Assembly: GCA_018268605.1 (NCBI GenBank)
Contig: JAFDWG010000327.1
Span: 1-36,169, forward strand
Length of the DNA stretch: 36,169 nucleotides
Reading direction: 5' to 3'
Source of the DNA: Actinomycetota bacterium
GTDB taxonomy: Bacteria; Actinomycetota; Thermoleophilia; Solirubrobacterales; 70-9
Every line of letters starts with the position of its first letter. Position 1 is the first letter of the stretch. Shown in pieces: positions 10,190-24,174 of this stretch. The position numbers were made by a program, and so were the translations under genes. The notes under the pieces are model-generated. The model was not told where the DNA came from, did not search any database, and saw nothing but the letters and a program-made list of their open reading frames with translations.

Positions 10190-10218
10190 CCGCCGGCGAC
10201 CATCCGGAAAGGAACCCC

Positions 10219-10611
10219 ATGTCAATCCTCGCCGACATCAGCTTCGGTGAACTGCTCCTCCTGACGTTCGAGATCTTCCTCTTCGTCATCTGGATCTGGA
10301 TCCTGTTCACGATCATCACCGATCTGTTCCGCGACCACGAACTCTCGGGATGGTGGAAGGCGGTCTGGGTCTTCTTCCTCATCTTCATCCCGGTCATCAC
10401 CGCGCTGGTCTACCTGATCGCCCGCGGCAACGGGATGCGCGACCGAACGATCAAAGCCCAGGCCGACGCGAAACGTCATTTCGACGAGTACGTCCGCGAG
10501 CAGGCCGTCACCTCACCCGCAGATGAACTCCACAAACTCAACGAACTGCGCGAAAAAGGCGCCCTCAGCCAGGCGGAGTTCGATCAGGCCAAGGCCAAGC
10601 TCCTGACCTGA
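10219..10611 (+). CDS. Membrane protein with PLDc_N-type helices and SHOCT domain
   Basis: A 130-residue protein. ATG at 10219 follows GGAAAGGAA at 8 nt. Two transmembrane helices (about residues 10-34 and 46-68) have the WW and IxIPxxxALxYL pattern of the phospholipase D nuclease N-terminal family, a membrane anchor without catalytic activity. A basic amphipathic segment and a C-terminal SHOCT module (ADELHKLNELREKGALSQAEF, then DQAKAKLL) follow. It sits 29 bp after the preceding SHOCT gene. The arrangement suggests a membrane-tethered scaffold; that is inference. Confidence 0.8.
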   Translation: MSILADISFGELLLLTFEIFLFVIWIWILFTIITDLFRDHELSGWWKAVWVFFLIFIPVITALVYLIARGNGMRDRTIKAQADAKRHFDEYVREQAVTSPADELHKLNELREKGALSQAEFDQAKAKLLT

Positions 10612-10748
10612 GCCACCGACCAATCGTCCACAAGTCAGTCTCGTCTTGGTCTCGAATTCCGACCGGAGCGGCGCCGCCTCGACTACGTTCGCGCGCGCAC
10701 GCCGACTCCGGTCGGTCCAAGACAACCCAGTGGGGGACGAAGAAACAG

Positions 10749-11132
10749 ATGAATCGTCGGTTCGGGAAGTACGGCTCAAAGGCGTCGGCGCTCGCGCTGA
10801 TCGTGGCGGCGGCGCTCGCGGGCGGGGTGCTCGCCGGTTGCGGCAGCAACAGCAACAACGTCGCGAGCACGGTGGAAAAGCAGATCGAAAAGAGCGGCGA
10901 ACAGGCCGAAAAAATCGTCAACGAAGCCACCAATCAGGCGCAGGAAGAACTTCAGAAGGCCAACAAGGAAAGCGGCGAAGCCTCCAAGTCGGCCGAAGAA
11001 GTGACGAAGAGCACCGAAGCCGCGATCGAAGAAGCCAACAAGAAGGCCAAGAAGGGCATCCAGCAGGGGCAGGAAATGTCCAAGGAAATCACCGAAGAAG
11101 TCAACAAGCAGATCGAAGAAGCGACCCCCTAG
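10749..11132 (+). CDS. Glu/Lys-rich coiled-coil lipoprotein
   Basis: A 127-residue protein with a lipoprotein signal peptide: basic start, hydrophobic core, lipobox LAGC with the acylated Cys near residue 31. The mature part is a long charged helix rich in Glu, Lys, Ala and Gln, predicted as a coiled coil with no other domain. All of its more than 20 glutamates are encoded by GAA and none by GAG, unlike most neighbours. A 137-bp gap separates it from the SHOCT gene, so it may have its own promoter. It probably works at the outer face of the membrane; its role is unknown. Confidence 0.72.
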   Translation: MNRRFGKYGSKASALALIVAAALAGGVLAGCGSNSNNVASTVEKQIEKSGEQAEKIVNEATNQAQEELQKANKESGEASKSAEEVTKSTEAAIEEANKKAKKGIQQGQEMSKEITEEVNKQIEEATP

Positions 11133-11159
11133 GGCCGACCGCGAGGCGAGGAGAAGACC

Positions 11160-11498
11160 ATGGGCTTCATGGACAAGCTGAAGGGCACCGCGAAGCAGGC
11201 CGTCAATCCCGGCGGCTCGATGAAGGAACGCGACAAGATCCAGAAGATCAACGCGTCGGGGGTCGACGCGACCGCCACGGTGGACTCGATGGAGGAGGTC
11301 GGCTCGCAGCTCGGCGGCGGCCATCAGATCGACTTCCAGCTCACCGTCCATCCGGCGGGCGGCGCCGACTACCAGGTGTCGACCAGCCAGTCGATGCACG
11401 AGCAGACCCTGAAAGGGGTCGAACAAGGCGCGACGGTCGCGGTCAAGATCGACCCTGACGATCCCCAGTCGCTACTGGTCTGGGGCGCCGCGAGCTAG
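11160..11498 (+). CDS. Small soluble protein, DUF3592-like beta fold (tentative)
   Basis: A 112-residue protein with an amphipathic, basic N-terminus (MDKLKGTAKQAVNPGGSMKERDKIQKI) followed by alternating strands: GVDATATVDSMEEVG, HQIDFQLTVHP, ADYQVSTSQSM, GATVAVKIDPDDPQSLLV. The phrase 'V(K)IDPxDPxxxxV' is typical of small OB-like domains that occur in DUF3592 and related actinobacterial proteins. The assignment is by pattern only. ATG at 11160 has GAGGCGAGGAG upstream. Its stop lies 4 bp from the stop of the convergent ATPase gene. Last gene of the small-protein run. Confidence 0.65.
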   Translation: MGFMDKLKGTAKQAVNPGGSMKERDKIQKINASGVDATATVDSMEEVGSQLGGGHQIDFQLTVHPAGGADYQVSTSQSMHEQTLKGVEQGATVAVKIDPDDPQSLLVWGAAS

Positions 11499-11502
11499 AC
11501 CC

Positions 11503-13392
11503 TCAGCGGCGTGCCGAGAGGTACGCCGCGACCCGCTCACAGCCGCGCCGCAACCGTCGGAAGTAGGCGGCGCGGCTGAGGTGGAGGGACTCGGCGACGG
11601 CTTCGTGGGTCGCGCTCCGTTCGAGGTAGCCGCGACGGAGCGCGGTCTGGGTCAGCTGGTCGCCGGGCGTCCCGTCGAAGGCGTGATCGACGGCGTCGGT
11701 GAGGGCGGCGCGGACCGAGGCGGAGCGAGCCGCGATGGTCTCGCCGCTCGCCAGGGGGCTCCCCGCCAGGTCGGCGCGGATGCCGAAGGCGCGGAACGCC
11801 TCGCGGACCGTCGCCACCGAGACGGCCTGGTCGACGCTCGGGCGTGGCGGTTCCGGCAGGCCGAGCTCACGGTAGACGTGGGCGTGCAGGGCGGCGATGA
11901 TCCCGCCCGGTCCCCAGTCGAGGAGGTGGCACTCGACCGTCTCCTCGCCGACCCGAGCGTCCAACTCGGGGACGTGGACGGCGCCGCCCGCGGCGGCGAA
12001 CTCCCGCGCGCCGGGCAGCGCCGGGTTGATCGGCAGGTAGCCGTAGCGCGGGCTGACCGAGGTCGCGGCGAGTAGGCCCGCCATGCCGAGCAACCCGAAG
12101 AGGTCCGGGTCGCGATCCCCTTTGACGGCGATCATGTCGCGCCAGATCACCGCGTCGGGGCGGTCGAGCCGGCGCGCGTGGGCGAGGCGCGGGCCGAGGA
12201 TCGGGTCCTCGTCGGCCGCTTCGGGGGCGGTACCGGGGGTGAGGCAGACGGTGATGCCGCAGAGGCGCTCGTCGCGGTCGCGGGCGACCGTGGCGTGGTC
12301 GGGAGACGCCTCGAGCAGGGCCCGGGAGCCCTCCCAGACGCCTGCGTGTCGGTGTCCGGCGACAGCTTGATCGGCCGTCTCGAGGTCCCCGGCCCGGAGG
12401 CCGTCGACGCGCAGGCGCTCGGACGCCCGCCAGGAGAAGCCCCAGTGGAGCGCCGGGCTCTCGGCGAGTTCGGCCAGGTCGGTCAACGCCAGCGGGCCCG
12501 CCGGGCCGGTGCCGATCGCGTACAGATGGTCGGCGACGCGGCGGCGCAGCTCCGCTTCGAGCAGGGGGTGGTCGCGCCGCATGCAGGCGCGGATCGCCTT
12601 GCGGACCAGCTCGTGGGGCGCGACCCCGAGGCCGCGCGGCTCGACGAAGTCGCGTCGCCGGAGCCACTCCCACTCGGCCTCCGGGTCGGCCCCCATCAGC
12701 GATCCGGCGAGCAGCTCGGGCGTCGTCACGCGCGCGATCGCCGCGATGGCGAGCGTCGCCAGGTGCGGGCCTTGGAGCCGTTCGGCGACCAGGCGCGCGA
12801 CGAAATCCTCGTCGAGACCGACGCCGGGCCCCGGCGATCCTGATGTGCGGTCCGCCGCCGCGGCGGCCAGCTCCAGCGCCAGCGGGTTGCCCTGCGCCCA
12901 GTCGCGGGCGCGGGCGACCGCGGCCGCGTCGAGGCCGTGACGGCGGAGCAGCTCGGTCGACGCCTCCGCATCGAGCGGCGCCAGCGGCAGCGACAGGAAG
13001 CGGCGCTCCTCGCGCGCCGCCCACTCAGGTCCGGGCGCGCGGCGCGAGGCGATCAGGACCGCCGCCCCCTCCGGCAGCGCCGGCAGCAGCACCCGACGTA
13101 GGTAGCCGCCGAGCGCCTCGACCCGCTCGAAGCAGTCGAGGACCACCAGCGGGCGCCCTCCCTCCGCCCACGCCCCGAGCGCGTCCTCCAACTGGTCGGG
13201 AACCGGCGCGATGTCGCGGCCGTCGATCCACACGACCTCGAACCCGGCCCCCGCCGCCCGCTCCGCCACTGCCCGCAGCAGCGCCGTCTTCCCGATCCCC
13301 GCCGGCCCATGGGCATAGACAGCCGCGACGCCCCCGACCTTCGCCAGCTCGGCCTCGATCCCACTCAACTCACGGTCGCGCCCCGCCAGCAC
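11503..13392 (-). CDS. ATP-binding regulator with N-terminal AAA domain
   Basis: A 629-residue protein. It opens with the AAA_16-type start LAGRDRELSGIEAEL, has a Walker A (GPAGIGKTALL, about residues 29-39), a Walker B (RPLVVLDCFE) and a sensor-like VLIASRR. A winged-helix-like section and a variable middle follow. The last 60 residues (ERSATHEAVAESLHLSRAAYFRRLRRG) look like a DNA-binding helix-turn-helix. The layout resembles STAND/LAL regulators but lacks the canonical LuxR domain. Start GTG 13392. Target and ligand are unknown. Confidence 0.75.
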   Translation of the reverse strand: MLAGRDRELSGIEAELAKVGGVAAVYAHGPAGIGKTALLRAVAERAAGAGFEVVWIDGRDIAPVPDQLEDALGAWAEGGRPLVVLDCFERVEALGGYLRRVLLPALPEGAAVLIASRRAPGPEWAAREERRFLSLPLAPLDAEASTELLRRHGLDAAAVARARDWAQGNPLALELAAAAADRTSGSPGPGVGLDEDFVARLVAERLQGPHLATLAIAAIARVTTPELLAGSLMGADPEAEWEWLRRRDFVEPRGLGVAPHELVRKAIRACMRRDHPLLEAELRRRVADHLYAIGTGPAGPLALTDLAELAESPALHWGFSWRASERLRVDGLRAGDLETADQAVAGHRHAGVWEGSRALLEASPDHATVARDRDERLCGITVCLTPGTAPEAADEDPILGPRLAHARRLDRPDAVIWRDMIAVKGDRDPDLFGLLGMAGLLAATSVSPRYGYLPINPALPGAREFAAAGGAVHVPELDARVGEETVECHLLDWGPGGIIAALHAHVYRELGLPEPPRPSVDQAVSVATVREAFRAFGIRADLAGSPLASGETIAARSASVRAALTDAVDHAFDGTPGDQLTQTALRRGYLERSATHEAVAESLHLSRAAYFRRLRRGCERVAAYLSARR

Positions 13393-13441
13393 CGCCGCAG
13401 GATCTCAGATCCCGGGGAAAATGAGCCTGGGCGACCGGGAC

Positions 13442-14308
13442 TCAGTCGGCACTCGGGGGCCAGGGACGGTAGACGGTGGCGAGGACCGAGACGGTGGCCT
13501 CGGTCGGGAGGGCGGCGGCATCGAGGGTGGCGAGGTCCTGGGCGCTGAGGTGGCGCGCGCTCGGGGTCATCCGCAGCAGGGCGCCGGCCTCTTCGTCGGT
13601 GAGGGACAGGGGGTATGAGATCCGCTCGGTCTCGAGGGGCTCGAAATGGGGGTCGAGGGCGCGCTCCAGGCGCTCCTCCTTCTCCGGGTCGACGTCGACC
13701 ATCCCCTTCACCCGGCGGCGTAGCTCGGCGAGGTGGTCGCCGTCGGGCCGCGCGACGATCAGGCGGCCCTCCGGCCGCAGGACGCGGTGGAACTCGGCCG
13801 GGTTGCGCGGGGCGAAGACGTCGAGGGCCAGGTCCACCGAGGCGGGCGCGATCGGGAAGGGGCGGAAGACGTCCCAGCTCGCGGCGGCGCCGTGAGGGTG
13901 CGCCTTGGCGGCGGCGCGCAGGGCGCGGACGGAGGAGTCGAGGCCGAGGCCGCGCGCTTCCGGCAGGGCTTCGAGGACGCCCGCGAGGTGGTAGCCGGTG
14001 CCGCAGCCCACCTCGAGGACGGTGGCGGCCCCCGGCCCCGAGCGCGCGCCCAGCCCGGCGAGCGCGTCGCGGAGTGGGGCATAGTGGCCGGCCGCGAGGA
14101 AGTCGATGCGCGCGCGGGCCATCGCCGCGTCATCGCCGCTCCGCGCCTGCCCGCCGCTCAGCAGGCTCGCGTAACCCTGGCGGGCGATGTCGAAACTATG
14201 GCGCCGTGGGCAGCGAAGCGAGGATTCGACCCGCCCGAGGCCCTCCCCGCAGACGGGGCAGCGGAGGATCGGGAGGACGAGGTCGAGGGCGGTGTCTGGT
14301 GCGGGCAT
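13442..14308 (-). CDS. rlmA: RlmA-like 23S rRNA (guanine-N1) methyltransferase
   Basis: A SAM-dependent methyltransferase of 288 residues. The N-terminal zinc site C17-P-V-C20 with C33 and H37 (CPRRHSFDIARQGYASLL) matches RlmA enzymes, which methylate G745 or G748 in the loop of 23S rRNA helix 35. The SAM motif I is VLEVGCGTGYHLAG, and FAPRNPAEFHRVLRPEGRLIVARP and LLRMTPSARH match later conserved parts. Whether it is of the RlmA-I or RlmA-II (TlrB) type cannot be told. I chose ATG 14308 because the ORF extension upstream is Arg-rich and not conserved. It lies 31 bp after the PP-loop gene on the same strand. Confidence 0.87.
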   Translation of the reverse strand: MPAPDTALDLVLPILRCPVCGEGLGRVESSLRCPRRHSFDIARQGYASLLSGGQARSGDDAAMARARIDFLAAGHYAPLRDALAGLGARSGPGAATVLEVGCGTGYHLAGVLEALPEARGLGLDSSVRALRAAAKAHPHGAAASWDVFRPFPIAPASVDLALDVFAPRNPAEFHRVLRPEGRLIVARPDGDHLAELRRRVKGMVDVDPEKEERLERALDPHFEPLETERISYPLSLTDEEAGALLRMTPSARHLSAQDLATLDAAALPTEATVSVLATVYRPWPPSAD

Positions 14309-14339
14309 GGGCGGCCGGTAGAGTGCCGCCCGAGCGTAG

Positions 14340-15041
14340 CTAGCGGCGCGCCGCCGCCGTCTTCGCCGCAAGATCGACGAACCAGACCCCGTCGCGCAGG
14401 CTTCGCTCGCCGACGTCGACCTCGACCGGGTGGGAGAAGATCGGGCCGTCGACTACGAAGGTGTGGAACTCGCCGTTCTCCCCGGCCAGGTCGACATCCG
14501 CGGCGGCGAAGCGCCCGAGCATCTCCTCGTCGACCACCTCGCCGAGGAGCGAGGGCGGCAGCAGCCCGTCCCTGACCGCGACGACGACGGCGCGGAAGCC
14601 GAGGTCCAGCAGCTCCCGCATCAGCCCCTCCCGCGAGCGTTGCCAGAGCGGTAGCCAGGCCTCCGTCCCGACCGAGGCGGCCATCGCCTCGACCCATTCG
14701 CGGTGAGCCTCGGTGTCGATGTCCCCGAAGATCCCGGTGCCGAGGCCCTGCTGCGCCGCGCCCGCGAGCTCGGCTCGCAGCGCCTCCTCGTACCCGTGCC
14801 AGGTGGTCGCGGCGAAGGCGATCGGGACGCCGAGCGCTGCCCCCTGCGCCTCGAGCAGCTCCCGCCTCAGCCCATGGGAGCGGGAGCGCTCGCCGCTCTC
14901 GGTCAGCATCGTCACCAGCAGGCCGGGCTTGGCGCCTCCGGCCAGCGCGTGGTGGAGCGCCAGCGCCGAGTCCTTACCGCCGCTCCAGGAGCAGTAGACG
15001 GGGACGGAGCGGGCCGAGGGAGTCGATTCGCTAGAAGTCAT
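14340..15041 (-). CDS. Dph6-like PP-loop ATPase (ATP pyrophosphatase family)
   Basis: A 233-residue N-type ATP pyrophosphatase of the diphthine-ammonia ligase (Dph6/DUF71) family. The PP-loop SGGKDS occupies residues 20-25 (YCSWSGGKDSALALH). GTGIFGDIDTEAHREWVE and the near C-terminal GENGEFHTFVVDGP are the family hallmarks. In eukaryotes and archaea the family amidates diphthine on EF-2. The bacterial substrate is not known, because bacteria lack diphthamide. The ATG at 15041 is the only start that keeps the PP-loop. It lies 2 bp from the start codon of the divergent dsbA-like gene. Confidence 0.85.
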   Translation of the reverse strand: MTSSESTPSARSVPVYCSWSGGKDSALALHHALAGGAKPGLLVTMLTESGERSRSHGLRRELLEAQGAALGVPIAFAATTWHGYEEALRAELAGAAQQGLGTGIFGDIDTEAHREWVEAMAASVGTEAWLPLWQRSREGLMRELLDLGFRAVVVAVRDGLLPPSLLGEVVDEEMLGRFAAADVDLAGENGEFHTFVVDGPIFSHPVEVDVGERSLRDGVWFVDLAAKTAAARR

Positions 15042-15055
15042 CCATGCAGATTGAA
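15032..15055. promoter_or_regulatory. Back-to-back start codons with candidate overlapping -10 boxes
   Basis: The ATG of the minus gene (15041-15039) and the ATG of the plus gene (15044) are separated by CC only. On the plus strand TAGAAG (15032-15037) ends 6 nt before its ATG. On the minus strand CAATCT (15055-15050) ends 6 nt before its ATG. Each box lies in the other gene's coding sequence. Both are imperfect -10 matches, so leaderless transcription is inferred, not shown. Confidence 0.35.
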
Positions 15056-15694
15056 GTCTTCTCCGACGTCGTGTGTCCCTGGTGCTATCTCGGCAAACGC
15101 CGGCTGGAGGCCGCGCTCGCGGACTTCGACGGGCCCGCCGAGGTGATCTGGCGCGCCTTCCAACTGCAGCCCGACGCGCCGCGCTTCGGCGAGCCGGGGG
15201 CGGGGGAGCTGAGCACGGTCGCCCTCGCCGAGCGCTACCCGCCCGAGCAGATCGCCGAGATGCAGGGACGGCTGACGGCGCTCGCCGCCGAGGAGGGCCT
15301 CGACTACGCGCTTGACCGCGCCCATCACGTCAACAGCTTCGACGCGCACCGGCTCGCGAAGGGGGCTGCCCGCCACGGCCGCGGAGCGGAGATGGTCGAG
15401 CGCCTTTTCCGGGCTCAGCAGGTCGAGGCGCTGCGGATCGACGACCCGGCGGTGCTCGCCTGGCTGGCCGAGGAGGTCGGCGTCCCCGCGAGCACGCCCG
15501 CCGAGGACGCCGAGGACGCCGCGGCGGTCTTCGCCGACCTCGAGGAGGCGGCGGCGATCGGCGTCAACGGCGTCCCCTTCTTCGTCCTCGACCGCCGGCT
15601 CGCCGTCTCCGGCGCCCAGTCGGCCGAGCTGCTCGGCCGCGCGCTGGCTCAGGCGGCGACGGTGCGGGAGAGCAGCGCCGAGAGCTCCGTGTAG
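15044..15694 (+). CDS. DsbA family oxidoreductase (FrnE-like)
   Basis: A 216-residue thioredoxin-fold protein of the DsbA/FrnE/2-hydroxychromene-2-carboxylate isomerase group. It has the redox motif C11-P-W-C14 directly after the first strand (IEVFSDVVCPWCYLGK). A helical insert (HHVNSFDAHRLAKGAARHG) is typical of FrnE. The cis-proline region is INGVPFFVL-like (GVNGVPFFVLDRRLAVSGAQ). There is no signal peptide, so it acts in the cytosol. FrnE proteins are thiol-disulfide oxidoreductases linked to oxidative stress. The last 46 bp overlap the convergent dienelactone hydrolase gene. Confidence 0.88.
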   Translation: MQIEVFSDVVCPWCYLGKRRLEAALADFDGPAEVIWRAFQLQPDAPRFGEPGAGELSTVALAERYPPEQIAEMQGRLTALAAEEGLDYALDRAHHVNSFDAHRLAKGAARHGRGAEMVERLFRAQQVEALRIDDPAVLAWLAEEVGVPASTPAEDAEDAAAVFADLEEAAAIGVNGVPFFVLDRRLAVSGAQSAELLGRALAQAATVRESSAESSV

Positions 15695-16395
15695 GCGCGC
15701 TCGGCCGCGGCCTCGTCGTAGGCGGGGGTATCGGCCATCGTGTAGCCGTGCTCGGCGTCGGCATAGACCTCCGAGCGGAACTCCTTGCCCGCCGCGCGCA
15801 GGGCGTCCTCGACGGCCGCGATCTGCTTCGGCGTCGCGCTCCGATCGTGGTCGGCGAAGCCGAGGTAGAGCTCGGCTTCGAGGTCCGCGGCGCTCAGGTG
15901 CGGGCTCTCGTCGTCGTCGGTCGCCAGGCCGCCGGTGTGGAAGCAGCCCAGGGCCGCGACGCGGTCCGGATAAGCGGCGGCGATCCGCCAGCCGAGCCGC
16001 CCGCCCATGCAGTAGCCGGTGACCGCGACGTCGCCACCGTCTGCCTCGTCCTGCAGCTTGCCGAGGTAGGCGGCCGCGTCGGCGACGATCCGCTCCGTCG
16101 TCAGCTCCCGGATCAGTGGCATCAACCGCCCGAAGATCTCCCCCCGGCGCTCCGGGGCGTCGAGCCCGTCGAGCGGGACCACCGGCGCCCGCCCCACCCG
16201 GTAGAAGACGTTCGGCGCGAGGACGACGTAGCCCGCCGCCGCGATCCGATCGACCATCGCCTCGATCTGCGGCCGCAGCCCGAAGGCGTCGACCAGGAAG
16301 AGCACCCCCGGATGCGGGCGCCCGTCGTCGGGCCGGGCCAGATAGGAATCGGCGACCCCTTCGGCCGTTTTGACGTCGATCATTGCGCTGTTCAC
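15649..16395 (-). CDS. Dienelactone hydrolase family protein
   Basis: A 248-residue alpha/beta hydrolase. The cysteine nucleophile Cys129 is in GYCMGGR, the acid is in LYLGFADHD and the histidine in DAEHGYTM, the Cys-Asp-His triad of dienelactone hydrolases. These enzymes open lactone rings, often in aromatic degradation, but many homologues have unknown substrates and no other chlorocatechol gene is nearby. The GTG at 16395 is supported by a GGAAGG six nt upstream. The ATG at 16383 is the alternative. It follows the TrxR-like fusion gene on the same strand with a 71-bp gap. Confidence 0.87.
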   Translation of the reverse strand: MNSAMIDVKTAEGVADSYLARPDDGRPHPGVLFLVDAFGLRPQIEAMVDRIAAAGYVVLAPNVFYRVGRAPVVPLDGLDAPERRGEIFGRLMPLIRELTTERIVADAAAYLGKLQDEADGGDVAVTGYCMGGRLGWRIAAAYPDRVAALGCFHTGGLATDDDESPHLSAADLEAELYLGFADHDRSATPKQIAAVEDALRAAGKEFRSEVYADAEHGYTMADTPAYDEAAAERAYTELSALLSRTVAA

Positions 16396-16401
16396 TTCAC
16401 A

Positions 16402-16407
16402 CCTTCC
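16402..16407 (-). promoter_or_regulatory. Shine-Dalgarno deciding the dienelactone hydrolase start
   Basis: GGAAGG on the minus strand lies 6 nt before the GTG at 16395. It is 18 nt from the in-frame ATG at 16383, so the GTG is preferred. Confidence 0.55.
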
Positions 16408-16466
16408 GAGCTCGGATCATGCGTTCGCCGGGTCGGTGCCAACCCTAGTGAGACGGAGTCTCCGGG

Positions 16467-18152
16467 CTACCGCCGCAATGGGGTCAGGCGTTCCGCGGCG
16501 AAGAGCTCGTGGACCATGCGGACCGCGATCGAGCCCTCGCCGACGGCGGCGGCGACGCGACTCATCGAGCCGGAGCGGACGTCCCCGGCGGCGAAGACTC
16601 CGGGCACGCTGGTCTCGAGCGGGAACGGTTCGCGGTCCAGGGGCCAGGCCCTGTTCTGGCGCGCGGCTTCGCCGGTGAGGACGTAGTCGCCATCGCCGCG
16701 CCGGACCTCGGGCGGGAGCCAGTCGGTGTTCGGGTCGGCACCGATCATCAGGAAGAGGGCGCCGGCGTCGACGGTCTCGACGCTGCCGTCGGCGCCCTGC
16801 AACTCCAGGCTCTCGAGCCACTCACCGCCCCCGCCGCCGACGACCTCGGTCCGCAGCCGCACGTCGATGTTGGGCGCACCTTCGACCTGGCGCACGAGGT
16901 AGTCGGACATTCCGAGGTCGAGCGCGTCCTTGCGGATGACCAGGGTGACGCGGCGGGCGTAGTCGGCGAGGTGGAGCGCCGCCTGGCCGGCCGAGTTGGC
17001 GCCGCCGACGACGAAGACATCCGTGCCCGCCATCCCCGGCGCCTCGGAGGCGGGGCCGCCGTAGAAGACGCCCGCGCCGGTCAGGCGGTCGAGCTCGGCG
17101 ACCGGCAGCCGACGGTAGGTCGCGCCACCGGCGAGGACGACGGCGCGCGCCTGCACTTCGGTGCCATCGGAGAGGCTGAGGACGAGCCCGTCGGCCTCGC
17201 GTCGCAGGTCGATCGCCTGGTGCATCAAGGCGAACTGCGCGCCGAAGACCCACGACTGTTCGTAGGCCTGTTCGGCGAGGCGGCGGCCACTGACCCCGCG
17301 GGGGAAGCCGAGGTAGTTGCGGATCAGGGAGCTCGAGGTCGCCTGTCCGCCGATCCCGCCCTCGTCGATGACCAGCGTCCGCAGCCCCTCCGAGGCGCCG
17401 TAGACCGCCGCCGACAGCCCCGCCGGCCCGGCGCCGACGATGACCAGGTCGAACTCGCTGCGCCGCGGGTCGACCGTGGCGCCGACCGCCTCGGCCAGCT
17501 CGGCGTTGCTCGGGTTCGACAGCACGGTGCCGTTGGGGAAGACGACCAGGGGCAGCGGCTCGTCGGCGTCGGGCTCGGCCTCGGCGATCATCTCCTTGCC
17601 CTCGGGCGAGTCGGCCAGGGTGAAGGTGTGGGGGAGGGCGCAGCGGCCGAGGACCTGTCGCAGCTCGTAGGCTCGCCCGGTCCACGACTCGCCGACGACC
17701 CGCACCGTATGTGGGGCGACCCGCCGCGCGTGTGACCATTCGAGCAGGAAGGAGGTGATCGCCTGATGGAACTGCTCGTCCGGGCTCCGGCTCGGCCGGA
17801 TCACGTAGTACTCGATCTCCCGCCGGGCCATCGCCCCGAGGATCGCCTCGCCGGTCCGCCCGTCGCCCCAGCTGGCCCAGTCGATCAAGAGCGCGCGCTG
17901 GGCGAACGGGTCGAGCCCCCGCACCTTGCCGAGCAGCTCGCTTCCGGTCATGCCCTTCAACCACTGGCCCGCCAGCACGAGCGCGATGTCGTCGCCCGCT
18001 TCGCTCAGCTCCTCCAGCCGTCGCAGGGCCCGCCGCGAGGAGTTGACGCAGACGACGCGGTAGTCGCGGCCGTAACGCTCGCGCAGCTCATCCTCGACCT
18101 CGCGCAGTGAGGCCTGATCCTCGTCGACGGCAAAGAGGACGGGCTTGGACAA
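16467..18152 (-). CDS. Pseudo-receiver / thioredoxin-like / TrxR-like FAD oxidoreductase fusion
   Basis: A 561-residue three-part fusion. Residues 1-130 are receiver-like, with D10-E11-D12, but the phospho-acceptor aspartate is Gly62 (LVLAGQW, where relatives have an Asp). Residues 148-225 are thioredoxin/glutaredoxin-like, with SWTGRAY at the active-site turn and no CxxC. From about residue 235 there is a thioredoxin-reductase-like module with FAD motif VIVGAGPAGLSAA, NADPH motif VFVVGGANSAGQAA and FAD-binding GVFAAGDVR. The CATC redox pair is replaced by GGPA (VFYGGPASEA). Such fusions are known and annotated as fused response regulator/TrxR. The start is TTG at 18152. It probably binds FAD and NADPH but cannot do disulfide chemistry at the usual sites. 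Confidence 0.85.
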   Translation of the reverse strand: MSKPVLFAVDEDQASLREVEDELRERYGRDYRVVCVNSSRRALRRLEELSEAGDDIALVLAGQWLKGMTGSELLGKVRGLDPFAQRALLIDWASWGDGRTGEAILGAMARREIEYYVIRPSRSPDEQFHQAITSFLLEWSHARRVAPHTVRVVGESWTGRAYELRQVLGRCALPHTFTLADSPEGKEMIAEAEPDADEPLPLVVFPNGTVLSNPSNAELAEAVGATVDPRRSEFDLVIVGAGPAGLSAAVYGASEGLRTLVIDEGGIGGQATSSSLIRNYLGFPRGVSGRRLAEQAYEQSWVFGAQFALMHQAIDLRREADGLVLSLSDGTEVQARAVVLAGGATYRRLPVAELDRLTGAGVFYGGPASEAPGMAGTDVFVVGGANSAGQAALHLADYARRVTLVIRKDALDLGMSDYLVRQVEGAPNIDVRLRTEVVGGGGGEWLESLELQGADGSVETVDAGALFLMIGADPNTDWLPPEVRRGDGDYVLTGEAARQNRAWPLDREPFPLETSVPGVFAAGDVRSGSMSRVAAAVGEGSIAVRMVHELFAAERLTPLRR

Positions 18153-18263
18153 GACACTCCGACCGTACCGCGCCCCGACCGCCGCGACAACGGTGAATCC
18201 TTAGCTTGCGACGGCCGGCACGCGGATAGGATCGGAAATCTCCTCCAGGAAAAGGAGCATCTC

Positions 18264-18439
18264 TTGAATGCCAACCGGGAACTCTGGGAGAAGGGTGATC
18301 GGTGCGGGTGACCCGCCCGGGGCGGTCGCATCGTGATGCGAACTGGATCCTCGGGGACCCGACCCTGGTCGCCCAGATCCTCAAGATCGCCTCCGCCTAC
18401 TTGCCGCCGCCCCCTCTCCTGTCACAAGTCGCACGCTGA
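18264..18439 (+). pseudogene. Remnant of a class I SAM methyltransferase gene
   Basis: The TTG at 18264, with AAAAGGAG upstream, encodes NANRELWEKGD, the usual N-terminus of a UbiE-like methyltransferase group, then runs into a stop at 18309. From 18302, in another frame, VRVTRPG then NWILGDPTLVAQILKIASAY and PPPP resembles the segment just after the SAM-binding core of the same group. Between TRPG and NWI the expected GRIVM is present in a third frame (18324-18338), so a one-base insertion and a one-base loss compensate each other. About 100 codons are missing between the two pieces and the C-terminal half is gone. Family alignment is from memory. Confidence 0.6.
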
Positions 18440-18452
18440 CCCTCGCGAAGTC

Positions 18453-19101
18453 CGCATAACCCGCATTCCCCGCGGCAAGGGGGAGAGAATCCACCGGCGG
18501 AGCCTCGAGCAGCGCGTCAAGACCGGACGGCTGCATCTGATCTCCCGCGGGGTCTACGCGATGGGCCGCGCGGAACTGACGCCGCACGGGCGTTGGATGG
18601 CCGCCGTCCTGGTCTGCGGGGACGGAGCGGCGCTCAGCCATCGCAGCGCGGCCGAGCTGTGGGGCATCGGCCACGAGGAGCGGGGACGGATCGACGTCGC
18701 CACCGAACTTCTGCCGCTCCGCCTCGAGCGTGCGGTCAACGAGGCCGACAAGCACGACCTCGTCGACCCGGAGACGCTGCGGCGGGCGCTGGAACTCGAG
18801 GCCTACCGCGGCATGCCGGGCGTGGGAACTCTGAGGACGATGCTCGACCGCCACACCTTCCGGCTCTCGGATTCCGACCTTGAGATCTTCCTCGAGCCGC
18901 TCGCGCTGTCGGCCGGCTTCCCGCAGCCGCTGACGAAACACTGGGTCCTGGGCCATGAGACGGACTTCTTCTTCCCCGACCACGACCTGATCGTCGAGGC
19001 CGACGGGCTGCGCTACCACCGCACCGCGTCCCAGCAGGCGCGGATGGTCAGGCGCGACCAGAAGCACGTGGCGGCGGGCTACACGGTGCTGAGGTTCAGT
19101 C
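18453..19101 (+). pseudogene. Degraded DUF559 / AbiEi-like protein gene
   Basis: The frame encodes RRSLEQRVKTGRLHLISRGV then YAMGR, HGRWMAAVL and LSHRSAAELWGI, the start of an AbiEi-like/DUF559 protein, and later VDFFF-like ETDFFFPDHDLIVEADGLRYHR and AAGYTVLRFS, the Vsr-like nuclease fold. Between GRIDV and ATELLPLRLERAV, where homologues have some 40-60 residues including the second half of the antitoxin-like domain, the sequence is joined directly. No start codon fits the N-terminus: the frame continues upstream into methyltransferase remains. After LRFS the homology is lost while the frame stays open. I read this as an in-frame deletion derivative, probably non-functional. Confidence 0.5.
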
Positions 19102-19207
19102 GTGCAAGCGGTCGACTGGAGGGATCCGATGGGAGAAGCCCCGTGGCGCGGTCAGGCTCGTCCGCGTGCGTGCGACCGACGGCGGGAGCGGGGGAGCGCA
19201 GGCGCCC
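19102..19207. other. Non-coding spacer after gene remains
   Basis: The open frame of the degraded DUF559 gene continues here and beyond, but the residues have no protein-like pattern. I see nothing else in it. Confidence 0.4.
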
Positions 19208-19240
19208 GCGGCCGGCGTCTCGCGAGGGTTCGCCGGCCGC
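19208..19240 (-). terminator. Strong hairpin downstream of the COG4315 lipoprotein gene
   Basis: GCGGCCGGCG (19208-19217), a 13-nt loop, then CGCCGGCCGC (19231-19240): perfect 10-bp arms, 30 bp past the lipoprotein stop codon. No U-tract. Confidence 0.5.
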
Positions 19241-19248
19241 GAGCTGGT

Positions 19249-19266
19249 CGATCGGGGCGCCGATCG
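19249..19266 (-). terminator. Second hairpin next to the lipoprotein stop codon
   Basis: CGATCGG, loop GGCG, CCGATCG: perfect 7-bp arms that end 3 bp beyond the stop codon at 19270. With the next hairpin it forms a tandem pair. Confidence 0.45.
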
Positions 19267-19269
19267 GCC

Positions 19270-19818
19270 TCAGTAGCTGTAGCCGCCGCGGGATTCTTCT
19301 TCTTCCGATTCAGCTTCGCCGCCGGTCGCCTGGCCCTTCACGGGTGCGCCCGCTTCGTCCAGGACGAACCAGGTGCCTTCGGATTCGTTGCCGTTGGCTT
19401 CGCCGGGGCCCTTGTCGCCGGCGAAGGTGTAGAGCTGGTGGGCCGCGTAGGTCTCCTGCAGGGTCCCGTCCTTGCGCTTGGTGGTGCCGAGGTCGGCGGC
19501 CGTCGCGCCCGCGCCGGCGGTCGGCTTGCCGGTCGTCGTCACCGGCGGCCAGGCCGCTTCGCAACCGCCGTAGCAGTTGGATTTGGTGCCTTCGTCGACG
19601 GTGAAGTCGTAGACGGTCATGCCTTCGGAGTCGACCAGGACCGAGCCGAGGCCTTCGATTTCGGCCGCGCCGATCGTCCCTTCGACGCCGGAACCGCCGC
19701 CCGTTTCGGAACTCGACGAGCTACTCGACCCGCCGCCACCGCAGCCGGCGATCACGAGCGCCGCGACCACCGCCGCGAGGACGAGTGCGAACGTCGAAAC
19801 TTTTGGCTTGCTTCTCAC
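19270..19818 (-). CDS. Secreted-repeat lipoprotein (COG4315 / Lipoprotein_15 family)
   Basis: A 182-residue lipoprotein: GTG start with a perfect AAGGAGG at 7 nt, hydrophobic signal and lipobox IAGC, then a Gly/Ser linker. The mature domain has the COG4315 features: GSVLVDSEGMTVYDF, CYGGCEAAWPPV with two cysteines, HQLYTFAGDKGPGEANG and GTWFVLD. The family's function is unknown. It is anchored outside the membrane. The tail is Glu-rich (EAESEEEESRGG) and encoded by GAA codons. It is upstream of the tandem hairpins and downstream of kbl, with its own ribosome site. Confidence 0.86.
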   Translation of the reverse strand: MRSKPKVSTFALVLAAVVAALVIAGCGGGGSSSSSSSETGGGSGVEGTIGAAEIEGLGSVLVDSEGMTVYDFTVDEGTKSNCYGGCEAAWPPVTTTGKPTAGAGATAADLGTTKRKDGTLQETYAAHQLYTFAGDKGPGEANGNESEGTWFVLDEAGAPVKGQATGGEAESEEEESRGGYSY

Positions 19819-19872
19819 TTTCGTACCTCCTTGGGATTGCGCCCAGGGGTACGCGCGGCGGTCCGGCCGGGT

Positions 19873-21039
19873 TCAGCGGACGCGGGCGAATGCGTCGATC
19901 GCCCGGCGCAGCTCCTCCTCGTCATGAGCGGCCGACATCTGGGCGCGGATCCGGGCCTGGCCCATCGGCACCACGGGATAGGAGAAGGCGACGACGTAGA
20001 CGCCCTCGGCGAGGAGGCGCTCGGAGACCTCGACGGCCCGCTTCGCGTCGCCGAACATGATCGGCACGATCGGGTGGTCGCCAGGCAGCACCTCGTAGCC
20101 CTGCGCGGCGATCTCGCGGCGGAAGGCCTCGGTGTTGGCGCGGAGCTGGTCGAGAGGCGCCTCGCCGCGGTCGATCAGGTCGAGCACCCGCATCGAGGCG
20201 GCGACGATCGGCGGTGCCAAGGCGTTGGAGAAGAGGTAGGGACGGGAGCGCTGCCGCAGCAGGTCGACGATCTCCCCGCGGCCCGAGACGTAACCGCCGC
20301 TGGCGCCCCCGAGCGCCTTGCCGAGCGTGCCGGTGACGATGTCGACGCGGTCTTGCACGCCGAAGAGCTCCGGCGTGCCGCGCCCGGTCTCGCCGATGAA
20401 GCCGACGGCGTGGGAGTCGTCGACCATCACCATCGCGTCGTGGCGCTCGGCCAGCTCGCAGATGCGATCGAGCTGGGCGAGGTAGCCGTCCATCGAGAAG
20501 ACGCCATCGGTGACGACGAGCCGACGGCGGGCGTCGCCGGCCTCGCGCAGCCGCGCCTCGAGCTCGTCCATGTCCCCGTTCGCGTAGCGCAGGCGCCGCG
20601 CCTTGCTGAGCCGGATCCCGTCGATGATCGAGGCGTGGTTCAGGGTGTCGGAGATCACCGCGTCCTCGAGCCCGAGCAAGGTCTCGAAGACGCCACCGTT
20701 GGCGTCGAAGCAGGAGCTGTAGAGGATCGTCTTCTCCGTGCCGAGGAACTCCGAGAGCCGCTGCTCCAGGTCGACGTGGATCTGCTGCGTGCCGCAGATG
20801 AAGCGGACCGACGCCATGCCGTAGCCCCAGCGGTCGAGCGCCTCGTGGGCCGCCGCGATCACCTCGGGGTGGTCGGCGAGCCCGAGGTAGTTGTTGGCGC
20901 AGAGGTTGATCAGTGGGCCGGTCCCGACCTCGACCTCGCCCCGCTGCGGCGAGGCGATCAGGCGCTCGGCCTTGTGCAGGCCGGCCGCGCGGATCTCCTC
21001 GAGCTCTCCCGCCAACTGCTCGCGGACGTCTCCCAGCAT
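19873..21039 (-). CDS. kbl: Glycine C-acetyltransferase (2-amino-3-ketobutyrate CoA ligase)
   Basis: A PLP enzyme of the alpha-oxoamine synthase family, 388 residues. It splits 2-amino-3-ketobutyrate with CoA into glycine and acetyl-CoA, the second step of threonine degradation. The N-terminal [18 protein letters not shown], the PLP-binding [18 protein letters not shown] and the Schiff-base lysine K241 in [15 protein letters not shown] match Kbl. It starts 2 bp after the tdh stop and is thus translationally coupled. Length is near the E. coli protein (398). The partner gene makes the assignment firm over other oxoamine synthases. Confidence 0.95.
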
Positions 21040-21041
21040 GC

Positions 21042-22067
21042 TCAGCTCCAGTCCAGGAGGACCTTCGCGGCGCGGTCCCCACCCGCCGCGTCGAAGGCCG
21101 CCTCGTGCTCGGTGTAGTGGAAGCGATGGGTGAGGACGGGGGTGACGTCGAGCCCGGACTGGAGCATCACGCTCATCATGTACCAGGTCTCGTACATCTC
21201 CCTACCGTAGATCCCCTTCAGCGTGAGCATGTTGAAGACGACCTGGTTCCAGTCGATCGCGATCTCTTCGCTGGGGATGCCGAGCAGCGCGATGCGCCCG
21301 CCATGGGCCATGTTCCCGAGCATCCCCCGCAGCGCGGCGGGGTTGCCGGACATCTCGAGGCCGACGTCGAAGCCCTCATCCATGCCCAGGTCCTCGGCGA
21401 CGGCGGCGAGGTCAGTGGCGGTCGGGTCGACGGCGACGGTGGCGCCCATCGTCCGCGCCAGATCGAGGCGGAACGCGTTCGGGTCGCTGACCACGATGTG
21501 ACGGGCGCCCGCGTGGCGGACGACGGCGGTCGCCATCAGTCCGATCGGCCCGGCGCCGGTGATCAGCACGTCCTCGCCGAGCGTCTTGTGGGCGAGGGCG
21601 GTGTGGACGGCGTTGCCGAGCGGGTCGAAGATCGCCGCCACCTCGAGGTCGACGTCGGCGCGCTGGTGCCAGACGTTCGTCATCGGCAGCGAGATGTACT
21701 CGGCGAAGGCGCCCGGCCGGTTGACGCCGACGCCGCTGGTGTTGGCGCAGAGGTGGCGCCGCCCGGCCATGCAGTTGCGACAGCGACCGCAGACGACGTG
21801 GCCCTCACCGCTGACCAGCTCCCCGGGACGGAAGTCGTTGACGTTCTCGCCCACCGCGACCACCTCGCCGACGAACTCGTGGCCGACCACGAGCGGCACC
21901 GGGATCGTCGCCTGCGCCCACGCGTCCCAGCGGTGGATGTGGACGTCGGTCCCGCAGATGCCGGTCTTCAGCACCCGGATCAGGACGTCGTTGATGCCGA
22001 CCTCCGGATCGGGCACGTCGAGCAGGCTGAGGCCTGGGGCGGCCTCGTTCTTGACCAAAGCTCTCAC
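21042..22067 (-). CDS. tdh: L-threonine 3-dehydrogenase
   Basis: A zinc-dependent medium-chain dehydrogenase of 341 residues, oxidising L-threonine to 2-amino-3-ketobutyrate with NAD+. Catalytic site: C38, T40, H43 in [10 protein letters not shown] and H63-E64 in [10 protein letters not shown]. Structural zinc: C93, C96, C99, C107. The Rossmann motif is [10 protein letters not shown]. These positions fit E. coli Tdh exactly. The start is GTG at 22067 with a -10 box 6 nt upstream and no Shine-Dalgarno sequence. First gene of the tdh-kbl operon. Confidence 0.95.
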
Positions 22068-22073
22068 CGATCA

Positions 22074-22079
22074 GTTATA
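22074..22079 (-). promoter_or_regulatory. Candidate -10 box of a leaderless tdh transcript
   Basis: TATAAC on the minus strand is followed by TGATCG and then the GTG start, so transcription would begin at the start codon. It lies in the 31-bp gap to the NHL gene. No clear -35 box is visible. Confidence 0.5.
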
Positions 22080-22098
22080 CAGAGCGGCCGAAGTGGCC

Positions 22099-24096
22099 CT
22101 AGGGCGCTTCCGGCGGCCCGATCTGCGGCGAGCGGGTCGGCGCGGCGAGCCCGAGGTAGGCGACGATCTGGTAGCCGCCCGGATTGGTCTGGATCGGCGC
22201 GTTCTTCCAGTTGTTGGCGAGCCAGACATTGCCGGAGGGGTCGATCGCGACCCCGGTGTTGCGGACCAGGCCGTCGAAGCCGTAGCCGGACTTCGGCGAG
22301 ATCGCCGCACCGACGCGACGCTTGCCGGGCGGGCAGTTGCGTGGCACGGTGCCGCAGAGCTCGGAGAGGCGGCGGCCGCCGAAGTTCGCGATCCAGACCT
22401 GGTCGGCGCCGTCGACCGCGATGCCCCACGGGTTGTTCAGGCCGGCTCCGGTGATCGGGTCCGCGGCGGCCGGTTCGCCGTTCGGCTTCAGCAGGGTCAC
22501 GTTGCCGCCGCCTTTGCCGACCTTTTCCTCGACCTGCTTCGGTTCCACCTTGCCGGGGCAGGGCGCCACGACCCACTTGGAGTTCGACACCCACATGTAG
22601 CCGTTGCTGTCCCCGGCGATGCCCATCGGCAGGTGCAACCCGCCGCCGGTCGCGAGGCCGAGGACCTTGCCCGCGGGGGAGAGCTTGGCCACCGAGTTGC
22701 TGGAGTTGGCGGTGACGAAGACGTCGCCCTCGCCATTGACCGCGGCGCCGAAGGGCCGTTCGAAGCCGACCGTGCTCCCCGCCGTGACCAGACCTTCGCC
22801 GAGGTTGACCGCCTTGGCCGGGTCGCCGCCGTCGATCTTGGTGACGCTGTCGTTGCCGCAGTTGGCGAGCCAGATGTTCCCGCCCTGGTCGGAGACCGTC
22901 CCCTGCGGCCAGCTGATCCCTCCGACTTCGTAGCCGCCCGCCGGGGAGAGCGGTTTGCCCGCGAGGGTGAAGGCGGAGGCGGTGTAGTGGTTCGCCGCGG
23001 TTTCGCAGCCCTTGCCTTCGAAGCCGAAGTTGCCGAGCCAGACGCGGCTCGCCGGGTCGATCGCGATCCCGAAGCCGACCCCGCTGAGCCCGCCCCCTGC
23101 ATAAGGGGAGCCAGGATAGGTCTGGCCGGTCGGGGTGAAGCGGAAGAGCTTGTCGCTGCCGCAGGCGGGGACCTTGGGACGGCGGTCGTAGGCGTAGTTG
23201 TTGGCGACCCAGATGTTTCCTTCGGCGTCGATCGCGAAGTTGCCGGGGCCGTCCATCCCGGGCGGGTCGCCTTCGAAACGCAGGGCGAGGGTCCAGGCGC
23301 CGGGCGCTTCGCCTGCGCCGAGGACCGGGGACCACAGCGGGGGCGCGAGCCGTGCCAGCTTCGTCAGGCCGGCGACGTCGTGCCAGGGGTAGCGGGCGAC
23401 GTTGGCGACGGCTTCCAGGGTGTCGACGGCCGGTGCGTGGTCACCGGGCGCGCCCGCCAGCGAGAGTAGCCGCGCGCAGCGCTCGTCCTGGCGGCGGCAC
23501 AGTGCGAGCAGATCGGCGAGGGTGTTGAACGTCGCCAGGGTGGAGGTCGAGCCCCCGTTGGGGAACTCCCGGAGCACCGGTGAGAGGCTGCCGTCAAGAT
23601 CGACCAGGTCCCCGCTCATCGCCGCCGCGTTGCGCAGGCCGGGGTTCTTTCCGGCCACCTGCGCCGTGTTACGGCCCTGGTCCCAGTCGATGAACTGGGC
23701 CAGAGCGAAGCCCATCGCCACCGTGGTGCGCTCGGTCACCTTGGCGCGGGGCGGCGGGGTGCCTTCGCCGAGCGCGGCGCCGAGCCGGTAGCTCTGCCCA
23801 GAGGCCGGGAAGCCGGCTTCGGCCGCGCCCCCGGGGCGCGTCGCGGTGAGGTAGTCGACGGTGCTCGCCCGCGCGCCGCGGTAGCGCAGGACGTAGGCGC
23901 CGCCTGGACCGCTGCGCGCCTCGCCGAGCCGGGTCGGCGCCTTGCCGCCGGGGGTCGCCGCCCACAGCTCGACCGTCATCCCGCGCAGGGGGACCGTGCC
24001 GGAGATGGTCCCGGCGCCCTTCGCCATCGCCGTCCCCGGCATGAGGAGCACCGCGAGGATCGACAAGGGCACTGCAAGGCGACGCAGGGACTTCAA
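22099..24096 (-). CDS. Secreted NHL / Vgb-like beta-propeller protein
   Basis: A 665-residue exported protein. I set the start at TTG 24096, which has GAGAGGAG upstream and begins a clear signal peptide (KSLRRLAVPLSILAVLLMPG, cleavage after AMA). Upstream, the minus frame stays open for another 1.6 kb only as a shadow of the acyl-CoA synthetase. An N-terminal domain with a prealbumin-like start (GTISGTVPLRGMTVELWA) is followed by about six NHL/virginiamycin-B-lyase-like blades: repeated 'G-I/V-A-I/V-D ... G-N-I/V-W-V/L-A-N' units from about residue 300 to the end. It probably binds or scaffolds outside the cell; no enzyme activity can be claimed. Confidence 0.82.
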   Translation of the reverse strand: MKSLRRLAVPLSILAVLLMPGTAMAKGAGTISGTVPLRGMTVELWAATPGGKAPTRLGEARSGPGGAYVLRYRGARASTVDYLTATRPGGAAEAGFPASGQSYRLGAALGEGTPPPRAKVTERTTVAMGFALAQFIDWDQGRNTAQVAGKNPGLRNAAAMSGDLVDLDGSLSPVLREFPNGGSTSTLATFNTLADLLALCRRQDERCARLLSLAGAPGDHAPAVDTLEAVANVARYPWHDVAGLTKLARLAPPLWSPVLGAGEAPGAWTLALRFEGDPPGMDGPGNFAIDAEGNIWVANNYAYDRRPKVPACGSDKLFRFTPTGQTYPGSPYAGGGLSGVGFGIAIDPASRVWLGNFGFEGKGCETAANHYTASAFTLAGKPLSPAGGYEVGGISWPQGTVSDQGGNIWLANCGNDSVTKIDGGDPAKAVNLGEGLVTAGSTVGFERPFGAAVNGEGDVFVTANSSNSVAKLSPAGKVLGLATGGGLHLPMGIAGDSNGYMWVSNSKWVVAPCPGKVEPKQVEEKVGKGGGNVTLLKPNGEPAAADPITGAGLNNPWGIAVDGADQVWIANFGGRRLSELCGTVPRNCPPGKRRVGAAISPKSGYGFDGLVRNTGVAIDPSGNVWLANNWKNAPIQTNPGGYQIVAYLGLAAPTRSPQIGPPEAP

Positions 24097-24174
24097 CGGG
24101 GATCTCCTCTCGGTGCTGCTGGGCGGGCGGAGCGTATTCGCTGAATAGAGTTCGCGGCCAGGAGGAACGGCCCT

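Follow-up and report, generated by a model that had tools for sequence, protein, structure and literature searches.

A probable orphaned pseudo-receiver on a thioredoxin reductase-like flavoenzyme in Actinomycetota

The window analyzed here is the whole of a 36,169-nucleotide stretch of DNA (contig JAFDWG010000327.1 of assembly GCA_018268605.1, forward strand) from a bacterium of the Actinomycetota (Thermoleophilia, Solirubrobacterales). One of its genes encodes a protein in which a receiver, a glutaredoxin-like domain without CxxC, and a thioredoxin reductase (TrxR)-like domain for flavin adenine dinucleotide (FAD) and NAD(P)H follow each other from the N to the C terminus. The switch residues of the receiver are replaced and no histidine kinase gene is adjacent. 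With a probability of about 0.72, we consider the protein an NAD(P)H:FAD oxidoreductase with an orphaned pseudo-receiver, no longer under kinase control and delivering its flavin electrons to an external acceptor. The frame is free of stops and frameshifts, and the three-part fusion proposed in an initial annotation of this DNA holds. The features of the gene are the following.

16467..18152, minus strand: whole gene, pseudo-receiver, glutaredoxin-like domain and TrxR-like flavoenzyme (single open frame, TTG start, 561 amino acids)
17712..18146, minus strand: receiver-fold domain, residues 3–147, with a long last helix (126–145) leading into the next domain (homology to canonical receivers and predicted fold)
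17967..17969, minus strand: Gly62, codon GGC, at the position of the phospho-acceptor Asp (sequence and alignment)
17883..17885, minus strand: Ile90, at the position of the conserved receiver Thr (alignment)
17796..17798, minus strand: Arg119, at the position of the conserved receiver Lys (alignment)
17478..17711, minus strand: glutaredoxin/NrdH-like domain without CxxC, residues 148–225 (separate model and fold matches)
17640..17642, minus strand: Cys171 (14/14 in the clade of the window protein; Asn in 68/71 outside the wider 59-member clade)
16488..17465, minus strand: TrxR-like FAD/NAD(P)H domain, residues 230–555 (Pfam PF07992, 2.7e-29)
17418..17435, minus strand: intact FAD motif GAGPAG, residues 240–245
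17319..17321, minus strand: Arg278, which marks the 59-member clade and lies in the loop that follows GGQ (alignment)
17046..17057, minus strand: Gly-Pro-Ala-Ser, residues 366–369, in place of the TrxR CxxC (alignment with the true TrxR L005)
16986..17006, minus strand: dinucleotide motif GGANSAG, residues 383–389

The predicted strand and helix order of the N-terminal domain is (beta-alpha)5, and the 10-residue blocks within residues 1–80 all have model confidence (pLDDT) values of at least 90. In the profile–profile alignment of hhalign, window-type receivers match the canonical receivers of the receiver-TrxR family with a probability of 99.9 (E 1.3e-34), and residue 62 stands opposite the acceptor Asp of the canonical members. 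With this alignment and the codon read as GGC, the loss of the Asp and its replacement by Gly62, as initially annotated, are confirmed; the changes to Ile90 and Arg119 had been missed. The acidic pair at 11–12 is kept (Glu11, Asp12). The PF00072 receiver model, which was used in the sequence survey of PMC12632262, does not match the window protein at E values up to 1 or the proteins of loci L007 and L009 at values up to 0.01; it matches both canonical proteins scanned, L240 (3.7e-14) and L236 (1.5e-12). Judged by sequence, the domain is a receiver by descent without the key phosphotransfer residues, and it fits the definition of a pseudo-receiver (Bourret et al. 2025, PMC12632262).

The alignment set contains 130 receiver-TrxR proteins (130 of 131 retained) and 86 relatives with another N-terminus, named CNB-TrxR (for cyclic-nucleotide-binding). 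In the CNB class, all six proteins scanned contain PF00027, the remainder being classed by non-match to the receiver; PF00027 is also present in the three CNB-type paralogues of the own genome and is not among the Pfam families of the window protein. Left out of the receiver set were L146 (short after trimming), L155 (starting at residue 116, at a contig edge), and L005 (a true TrxR), and not included were one listed match (G535:C314) and several plasmid matches (H2, H5, H6, H9, H10). The tree was built from the glutaredoxin and TrxR part only, which keeps the receiver from shaping it. The window protein falls in a 59-member clade (local support 1.00), actinobacterial as judged by its named members, and within it in a nested clade of 14 (1.00) made of the window protein, seven loci of Geodermatophilus, Georgenia, and Aeromicrobium, and six others. 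The CNB sequences form no single outgroup, six standing apart from the rest and L153, L176, and L180 grouping with the larger CNB set, so that the other 71 receiver-TrxRs are a grade and not a clade. All 14 members of the window clade, from at least three named genera, are open over their full length (551–573 amino acids), and the 13 relatives are 55%–62% identical to the window protein, with the nearest at 62%.

The switch residues follow this tree. Among the other 71 members, the Asp is present in 71/71, the Thr in 70/71, and the Lys in 71/71. In the 59-member clade, the Asp occurs in 21/59, Thr or Ser in 6/59, and the Lys in 28/59, and in the 14-member clade all three are absent (0/14 each). 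At the acceptor position, the 59 sequences have D in 21, G in 18, A in 14, E and P in two each, and S and N in one each. Receivers without the Asp (with Gly, Ala, Ser, Asn, or Glu instead) occur also on other branches of the 59-member clade (L149, L157, L158, L160, L161, L152, L165, L212, L214, L213, L098, L100, and L103, and others). By parsimony, the Asp changes 11 times (Fitch) or 12 times (losses only) in the 59-member clade and never among the others. The tree lengths of the two parts are similar (22.3 and 20.1), and the chance that all 12 losses fall in one part by branch length alone is about 0.53^12, or about 5 in 10,000. The receivers also drift faster in the 59-member clade: at 50%–60% identity in the TrxR part, they are 36%–38% identical in the 59-member clade and 60%–61% in the others. 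The inactivation of the receiver in the window clade is, on these alignments, real, clade-wide, and inherited. The family alignment that had been proposed as a check thus shows Gly62-type loss throughout the window clade, with the Asp kept in the more distant relatives. Since 14/14 lack the Asp and 0/130 carry CxxC, it is a lineage trait and not the decay of one copy, and the case in which only this copy is degraded, named at the outset as a refutation, is not what is found.

The presence of a kinase neighbor follows the state of the receiver. At five annotated canonical loci (Gloeothece, Deinococcus, Caballeronia, Tsukamurella, and Streptomyces), the next gene is that of an "ATP-binding protein," with an overlap in four of the five. 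The Streptomyces protein matches HATPase_c (1.1e-22) and cNMP_binding (1.2e-6), with HisKA at 0.008, below its cut-off; these domains identify it as a histidine kinase that also carries a cyclic-nucleotide-binding domain. With a hidden Markov model (HMM) trained on six kinases from these five loci, 69 of the 71 other members (all but L175 and L121) are seen to have a histidine-kinase open reading frame (ORF) in their fetched flank, the five training loci being counted among the 69. In the 59-member clade, such an ORF occurs in the flank of 3/59 loci and in none as the adjacent gene on the same strand: in L224 it is upstream and more than 1 kb away, in L012 convergent on the other strand, and in L008 a 20-bit match far upstream. 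The kinase HMM has no match in the whole 36 kb window. In the own genome (about 85% complete) there is no full-length kinase relative, only matches to the C-terminal ATPase domain at 51 bits or less.

The association also holds in a second phylum, that of the Granulicella genome G559, with 26 loci in 25 of 199 genomes. There, all 25 readable receivers keep Asp, Thr, and Lys, and in 26/26 loci a same-strand kinase gene directly adjoins, either upstream or downstream (L279, without a receiver, is outside the 25 and inside the 26). A search centered on betaproteobacteria gave 0/299 genomes at a strict threshold, a result that says nothing about absence. In Geodermatophilus sabuli, where two copies were compared and a third match was left out, L246 has D/T/K, Glu278, and a kinase, and L253 has G/I/R, Arg278, and no kinase. 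A kinase neighbor and an intact receiver go together. The loss of the kinase looks older than that of the Asp, because 21 members of the 59-member clade keep the Asp without the kinase.

A comparison of ORFs of at least 80 amino acids in the 13 clade loci and in positions 10001–26000 of the window shows no conserved operon neighbor, the only shared window ORF being the gene itself, and no conserved neighbor that would point to an electron acceptor. The other shared ORFs are antisense or out-of-frame shadows or belong to close relatives (L007/L014, L010/L011, and L215/L218) or to the pair L009/L218, of which L009 carries a short-chain dehydrogenase.

The C-terminal domain (PF07992 at 103 bits, for a cut-off of 26.1) resembles thioredoxin reductases of known structure both in sequence and in fold, the best fold match having Z 34.4 and rmsd 2.5 over 301 residues. 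It scores 188.3 bits with TIGR01292 (thioredoxin-disulfide reductase), under the curated cut-off of 343.45. The own genome encodes a separate TrxR, L005, with CGVC. At columns 366–369, the window protein has G-P-A-S versus C-G-V-C in L005, with an adjoining one-residue insertion; the initially reported GGPA is therefore one residue off, and the absence of CxxC is correct. The FAD and dinucleotide motifs are intact as stated, but the specificity for NADPH that had been attached to them does not follow. In L005, the segment concerned reads R-R-D-E-F-R, and its three arginines correspond to those that bind the 2′-phosphate of NADPH in E. coli TrxR. The window protein has R407, K408, and D412 at these three places, so that only the first is kept as Arg and there is no basis for assigning it to NADPH rather than NADH.

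No CxxC occurs anywhere in the 130 aligned receiver-TrxR proteins, and the three CNB-type paralogues of the own genome have none at the TrxR place either. Some CxxC is present within the last 440 residues of 4/86 CNB-type sequences (L241, L019, L025, and L057). The lack of CxxC thus appears common to the whole receiver-type family as sampled, and its loss as an event in the window lineage is rejected. Of the usual catalytic residues first described as lost, only those of the receiver fit that description.

A marker of the 59-member clade lies in the TrxR-like domain. Residue 278 is Arg in 58 of the 59 and Gln in one; outside the clade it is Glu in 69 and Asp in two (n = 71), and it is Glu in 86/86 CNB-TrxRs and in L005. 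The spacing of Asp57 and Phe61 is given for BsFNR, in which Asp57 binds the flavin (PMC10526003). By spacing only, and in a low-confidence loop (275–285), these residues fit Asn279 and Phe283, with Thr272 at the place of Tyr50; on this reading by spacing, Asn279, the neighbor of Arg278, would stand at the flavin-binding place of Asp57.

An AlphaFold2 model of the full-length protein, built from 24 sequences (mean pLDDT 83), contains a (beta-alpha)5 domain at 5–145, a beta-alpha-beta-alpha-beta-beta-alpha domain at 150–223, and a TrxR-like part with two Rossmann folds. Because a PDB search with this model matched only the TrxR part, the glutaredoxin-like domain was folded alone (residues 146–230, pLDDT 86). 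Its best VIA match is the thioredoxin-like BC3987 (3zit; Z 10.8, rmsd 2.1 over 76 residues), glutaredoxins match as well, and NrdH entries follow at Z 8.9–9.5. The best Foldseek match is Mrx1, at E 1.6e-3, with none at or under 0.001. That this thioredoxin-like domain lacks CxxC, as the initial annotation held, is borne out by the whole protein, whose only cysteines are Cys35 and Cys171. At column 171, Cys is found in 0/71 receiver-TrxRs outside the 59-member clade, in 0/86 CNB-type sequences, and not in 45 of the 59. In the model, Cys171 comes directly after the first helix of the glutaredoxin fold (159–170), in neither the inter-domain linker nor the classical active-site loop. Column 35 is Cys in 10/14 members of the window clade and column 34 in 5/14.

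The closest known systems are the canonical receiver-TrxR ("TrxB"-output) response regulators, with the same three domains in the same order and, like the window protein, without CxxC. The mean identity of the window protein to the 71 other receiver-TrxRs is 34% in the receiver and 48% in the TrxR domain. It differs from the canonical form in having neither Asp/Thr/Lys nor an adjacent histidine kinase, and in Arg278 for Glu and Cys171 for Asn. In five public annotations such proteins are named "FAD-dependent oxidoreductase." A "Mycobacterium-like combination" of receiver and TrxR is mentioned in PMC5847659, and PMC9739842 lists TrxB as a class among the response regulators of Streptomyces coelicolor; the available portions of PMC9025218 and PMC8945050 contain nothing on the receiver-TrxR family. 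In our literature search, no publication brings together "pseudo-receiver" and "thioredoxin reductase," "fused response regulator" and "thioredoxin-disulfide reductase," or "UBP-type zinc finger" and "thioredoxin reductase."

The CNB-TrxRs ("cyclic nucleotide-binding domain-containing thioredoxin-disulfide reductase") share the glutaredoxin-like and TrxR-like part (36%–47% identity) and, like the window protein, lack a pair of cysteines at the columns where TrxR has its CxxC. In the window protein, a receiver fold replaces the cyclic-nucleotide domain, and the frequent Cys columns 205, 222, and 374 are without Cys. One CNB-type member, ATII-TrxR, is reported to reduce thioredoxin (Km 1.03 µM) and 5,5′-dithiobis(2-nitrobenzoic acid) (DTNB), with NADPH and NADH as donors, and its model has the redox centers Cys206–Cys223 and Cys376–Cys467 (PMC6544261). 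That paper contains none of the terms CxxC, CAVC, and CATC. By position numbers only, Cys206, 223, and 376 fit Cys207, 224, and 377 of L026, and Cys467 has no counterpart in L026. These three columns are Cys in 69, 53, and 77 of the 86 CNB sequences, respectively; they are Phe205, Ala222, and Met374 in the window protein, and no member of the 14-member clade has Cys at any of the three. With these residues and no CxxC, neither known disulfide relay is available to the window protein. In canonical loci, the cyclic-nucleotide-binding domain sits on the histidine kinase of the receiver form (L240 kinase), and in CNB-TrxRs on the TrxR itself (6/6 scanned); between the CNB-TrxRs and the kinase loci L236–L240, a similar sensor module is connected to one enzyme in two different ways.

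TrxR-like enzymes without CxxC are described that have ferredoxin, flavodoxin, or IsdG as substrate (PMC10294844). The TrxR-type ferredoxin/flavodoxin-NAD(P)+ reductases among them, a well-established group, share with the window protein the TrxR fold, FAD, NAD(P)H, and the lack of CxxC (PMC10294844, PMC10526003), whereas in the window protein regulatory domains are fused to this part and the chain stops shortly after its last helix (554 of 561). In AhpF, a thioredoxin-fold N-terminal part is fused to a TrxR-like part, as in the window protein, and the first two Foldseek matches are AhpF. AhpF is not known to have a receiver domain. It passes electrons via cysteine pairs (PMC8945050), unlike the window protein, which has no pairs for such a relay. 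The bacterial pseudo-receivers reviewed in PMC12632262 are likewise receivers by descent with the phosphotransfer residues gone and no kinase adjacent. Their described routes of control are protein contact, ligand binding, and cysteine oxidation, and orphans are strongly overrepresented among the characterized cases, in agreement with the window protein. The TrxR-like flavoenzyme output sets the window protein apart, "thioredoxin" and "TrxB" having no occurrence in that review.

The sequence of events that we propose starts from an ancestor that probably had an adjoining histidine kinase with its own cyclic-nucleotide-binding domain; this kinase would very probably have phosphorylated the receiver Asp and so controlled the flavoenzyme. 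At the base of the 59-member clade, the adjacent kinase would have been lost, with the receiver Thr gone in most members. The Asp would then have been lost many times, and in the 14-member clade Asp, Thr, and Lys are now all gone. In the present protein, hydride is predicted to pass from NAD(P)H to FAD and from there to an external acceptor, protein or small molecule; as no internal dithiol is left, the electrons would leave the flavin directly. The early suggestion that the protein may reduce another substrate agrees in outline with a protein lacking a dithiol and keeping its predicted flavin and dinucleotide sites. The pseudo-receiver, with no phospho-switch, may act as a fixed scaffold, offer a surface for binding, or have become a new sensor.

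Several points weigh against this interpretation. The flanks are short at some loci of the 59-member clade (5/59 with less than 1200 bases downstream and 4/59 with less than 900 upstream), so that a few kinase neighbors may have escaped detection; a kinase encoded elsewhere is conceivable at every locus, with a partial exception for the own genome. Still 21 of the 59 carry the Asp. Several inner nodes of that clade have weak support (0.37–0.5), which makes the number of Asp losses approximate. As the CNB sequences are not one outgroup, the root, and hence the ancestral state, is one that we infer, and the sampling began from the window protein. The ratio dN/dS (nonsynonymous to synonymous substitution rates) is uninformative, the dS looking compressed by GC bias. 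The AlphaFold2 model contains no FAD or NAD(P)H and is of low confidence at 275–285. Most orphan response regulators are typical (PMC12632262), and an orphan need thus not be dead. Finally, by analogy with the CNB-type relative that is reported to reduce thioredoxin and DTNB (PMC6544261), disulfide substrates are conceivable.

Among the alternatives, the best placed, although unlikely in our estimate, is redox control in the manner of RitR, with Cys171 (and Cys35 in most of the 14) in place of phosphorylation; oxidation or a mixed disulfide on the glutaredoxin-like domain would then switch the flavoenzyme or the binding of a partner. Switching by a single cysteine is described for RitR and HP1021-type regulators (PMC12632262; RitR abstract). 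The distribution of Cys171, in 14/14 of the window clade and 0/71 and 0/86 outside, would suit such a role, as would the Cys at columns 35 and 34 (10/14 and 5/14), but its place after helix 159–170, outside both the linker and the classical active-site loop, would not, and it is not found in the 45/59 of the wider clade that also lost the kinase neighbor. An equally doubtful elaboration is that the pseudo-receiver and Cys171, with Cys35 in most of the 14, sense the thiol or NAD(P)H state and gate FAD electrons to a new acceptor, Arg278 near the flavin being part of a retuned active site.

Rather less probable is a non-catalytic sensor, an idea that goes back to the sensor of NADPH state in the initial annotation and that the results neither favor nor contradict. 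In it, the FAD redox state, set by NAD(P)H, would shift the conformation of the fused domains and signal to a partner. The kept flavin and dinucleotide motifs, the missing usual electron exit, and the kept regulatory domain are compatible with it, but the protein has no output domain, the 14-member clade has no conserved neighbor to carry the signal, and a CNB-type relative is reported as an active reductase (PMC6544261). Improbable, too, is a disulfide reductase working by an unconventional route, as reported for ATII-TrxR: that enzyme reduced thioredoxin and DTNB, and the CxxC, CAVC, and CATC terms are absent from its paper (PMC6544261), but the three columns that fit its cysteines by position are Phe, Ala, and Met in the window protein and Cys in 0/14.

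A decaying gene, which the lost switch residues and a receiver evolving faster than the canonical form might suggest, is rejected, as the frame is open over its full length in 14/14 clade members, with 62% identity to the nearest and the motifs of the TrxR part kept. Phosphorylation or activation of the receiver on another residue by an unlinked kinase, for which the kept Glu11 and Asp12 could speak, is the least probable of all, with Asp, Thr, and Lys replaced in 14/14 and no full-length relative of the usual kinase in the (incomplete) own genome.

The surroundings of the gene in the window are the following.

15649..16395, minus strand: dienelactone hydrolase family protein, downstream neighbor after a 71-base gap (Pfam PF01738, 3.5e-36)
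15044–15694, plus strand: FrnE/DsbA-like protein, CPWC close to the start; convergent with the dienelactone hydrolase gene, whose end it overlaps (PF01323, 7.3e-39)
18333–19604, plus strand: divergent upstream ORF (weak DUF559 match, 5.6e-5)
11503–13392, minus strand: STAND-like ATPase (matches below Pfam cut-offs)
2879–5113, minus strand: LuxR-type AAA/TPR regulator

The dienelactone hydrolase is not found beside the other clade members and is therefore probably not part of the system. Next to canonical receiver-TrxR genes, a UBP-type zinc-finger protein occurs, for example at L239:8137-8487 and L240:8110-8463 (zf-UBP PF02148, 3.8e-14 for L240). By tblastn in the fetched flanks, it is found in 18/71 canonical loci, in 3/59 of the clade (L150, L151, and L154), and in 0/14 of the window clade; one neighbor of the canonical operon thus survives in the 59-member clade. 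In Tsukamurella (L239:8556-9641), the zinc-finger gene is followed by those of an S-(hydroxymethyl)mycothiol dehydrogenase and an MBL hydrolase, which may connect the canonical operon with the chemistry of formaldehyde or mycothiol.

The receiver-TrxR architecture and pseudo-receivers are both already known; new is the orphaned pseudo-receiver variant on a TrxR-like flavoenzyme. To call such proteins thioredoxin reductases would, by their sequences, imply a mechanism that is not open to them. The workings of bacterial pseudo-receivers are little understood (PMC12632262). Here, kinase-coupled and orphaned forms coexist, sometimes in one strain (Geodermatophilus sabuli), and the output is easily followed by optical means (flavin, NAD(P)H oxidation), so that the order of the losses (kinase neighbor, then Thr, Asp, and Lys) and the fate of a freed receiver are directly testable. 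Should the pseudo-receiver and Cys171 indeed sense and gate as in the elaboration above, kinase control would have been exchanged for direct control by redox state or metabolites, giving a one-protein sensor-enzyme derived from a two-component system.

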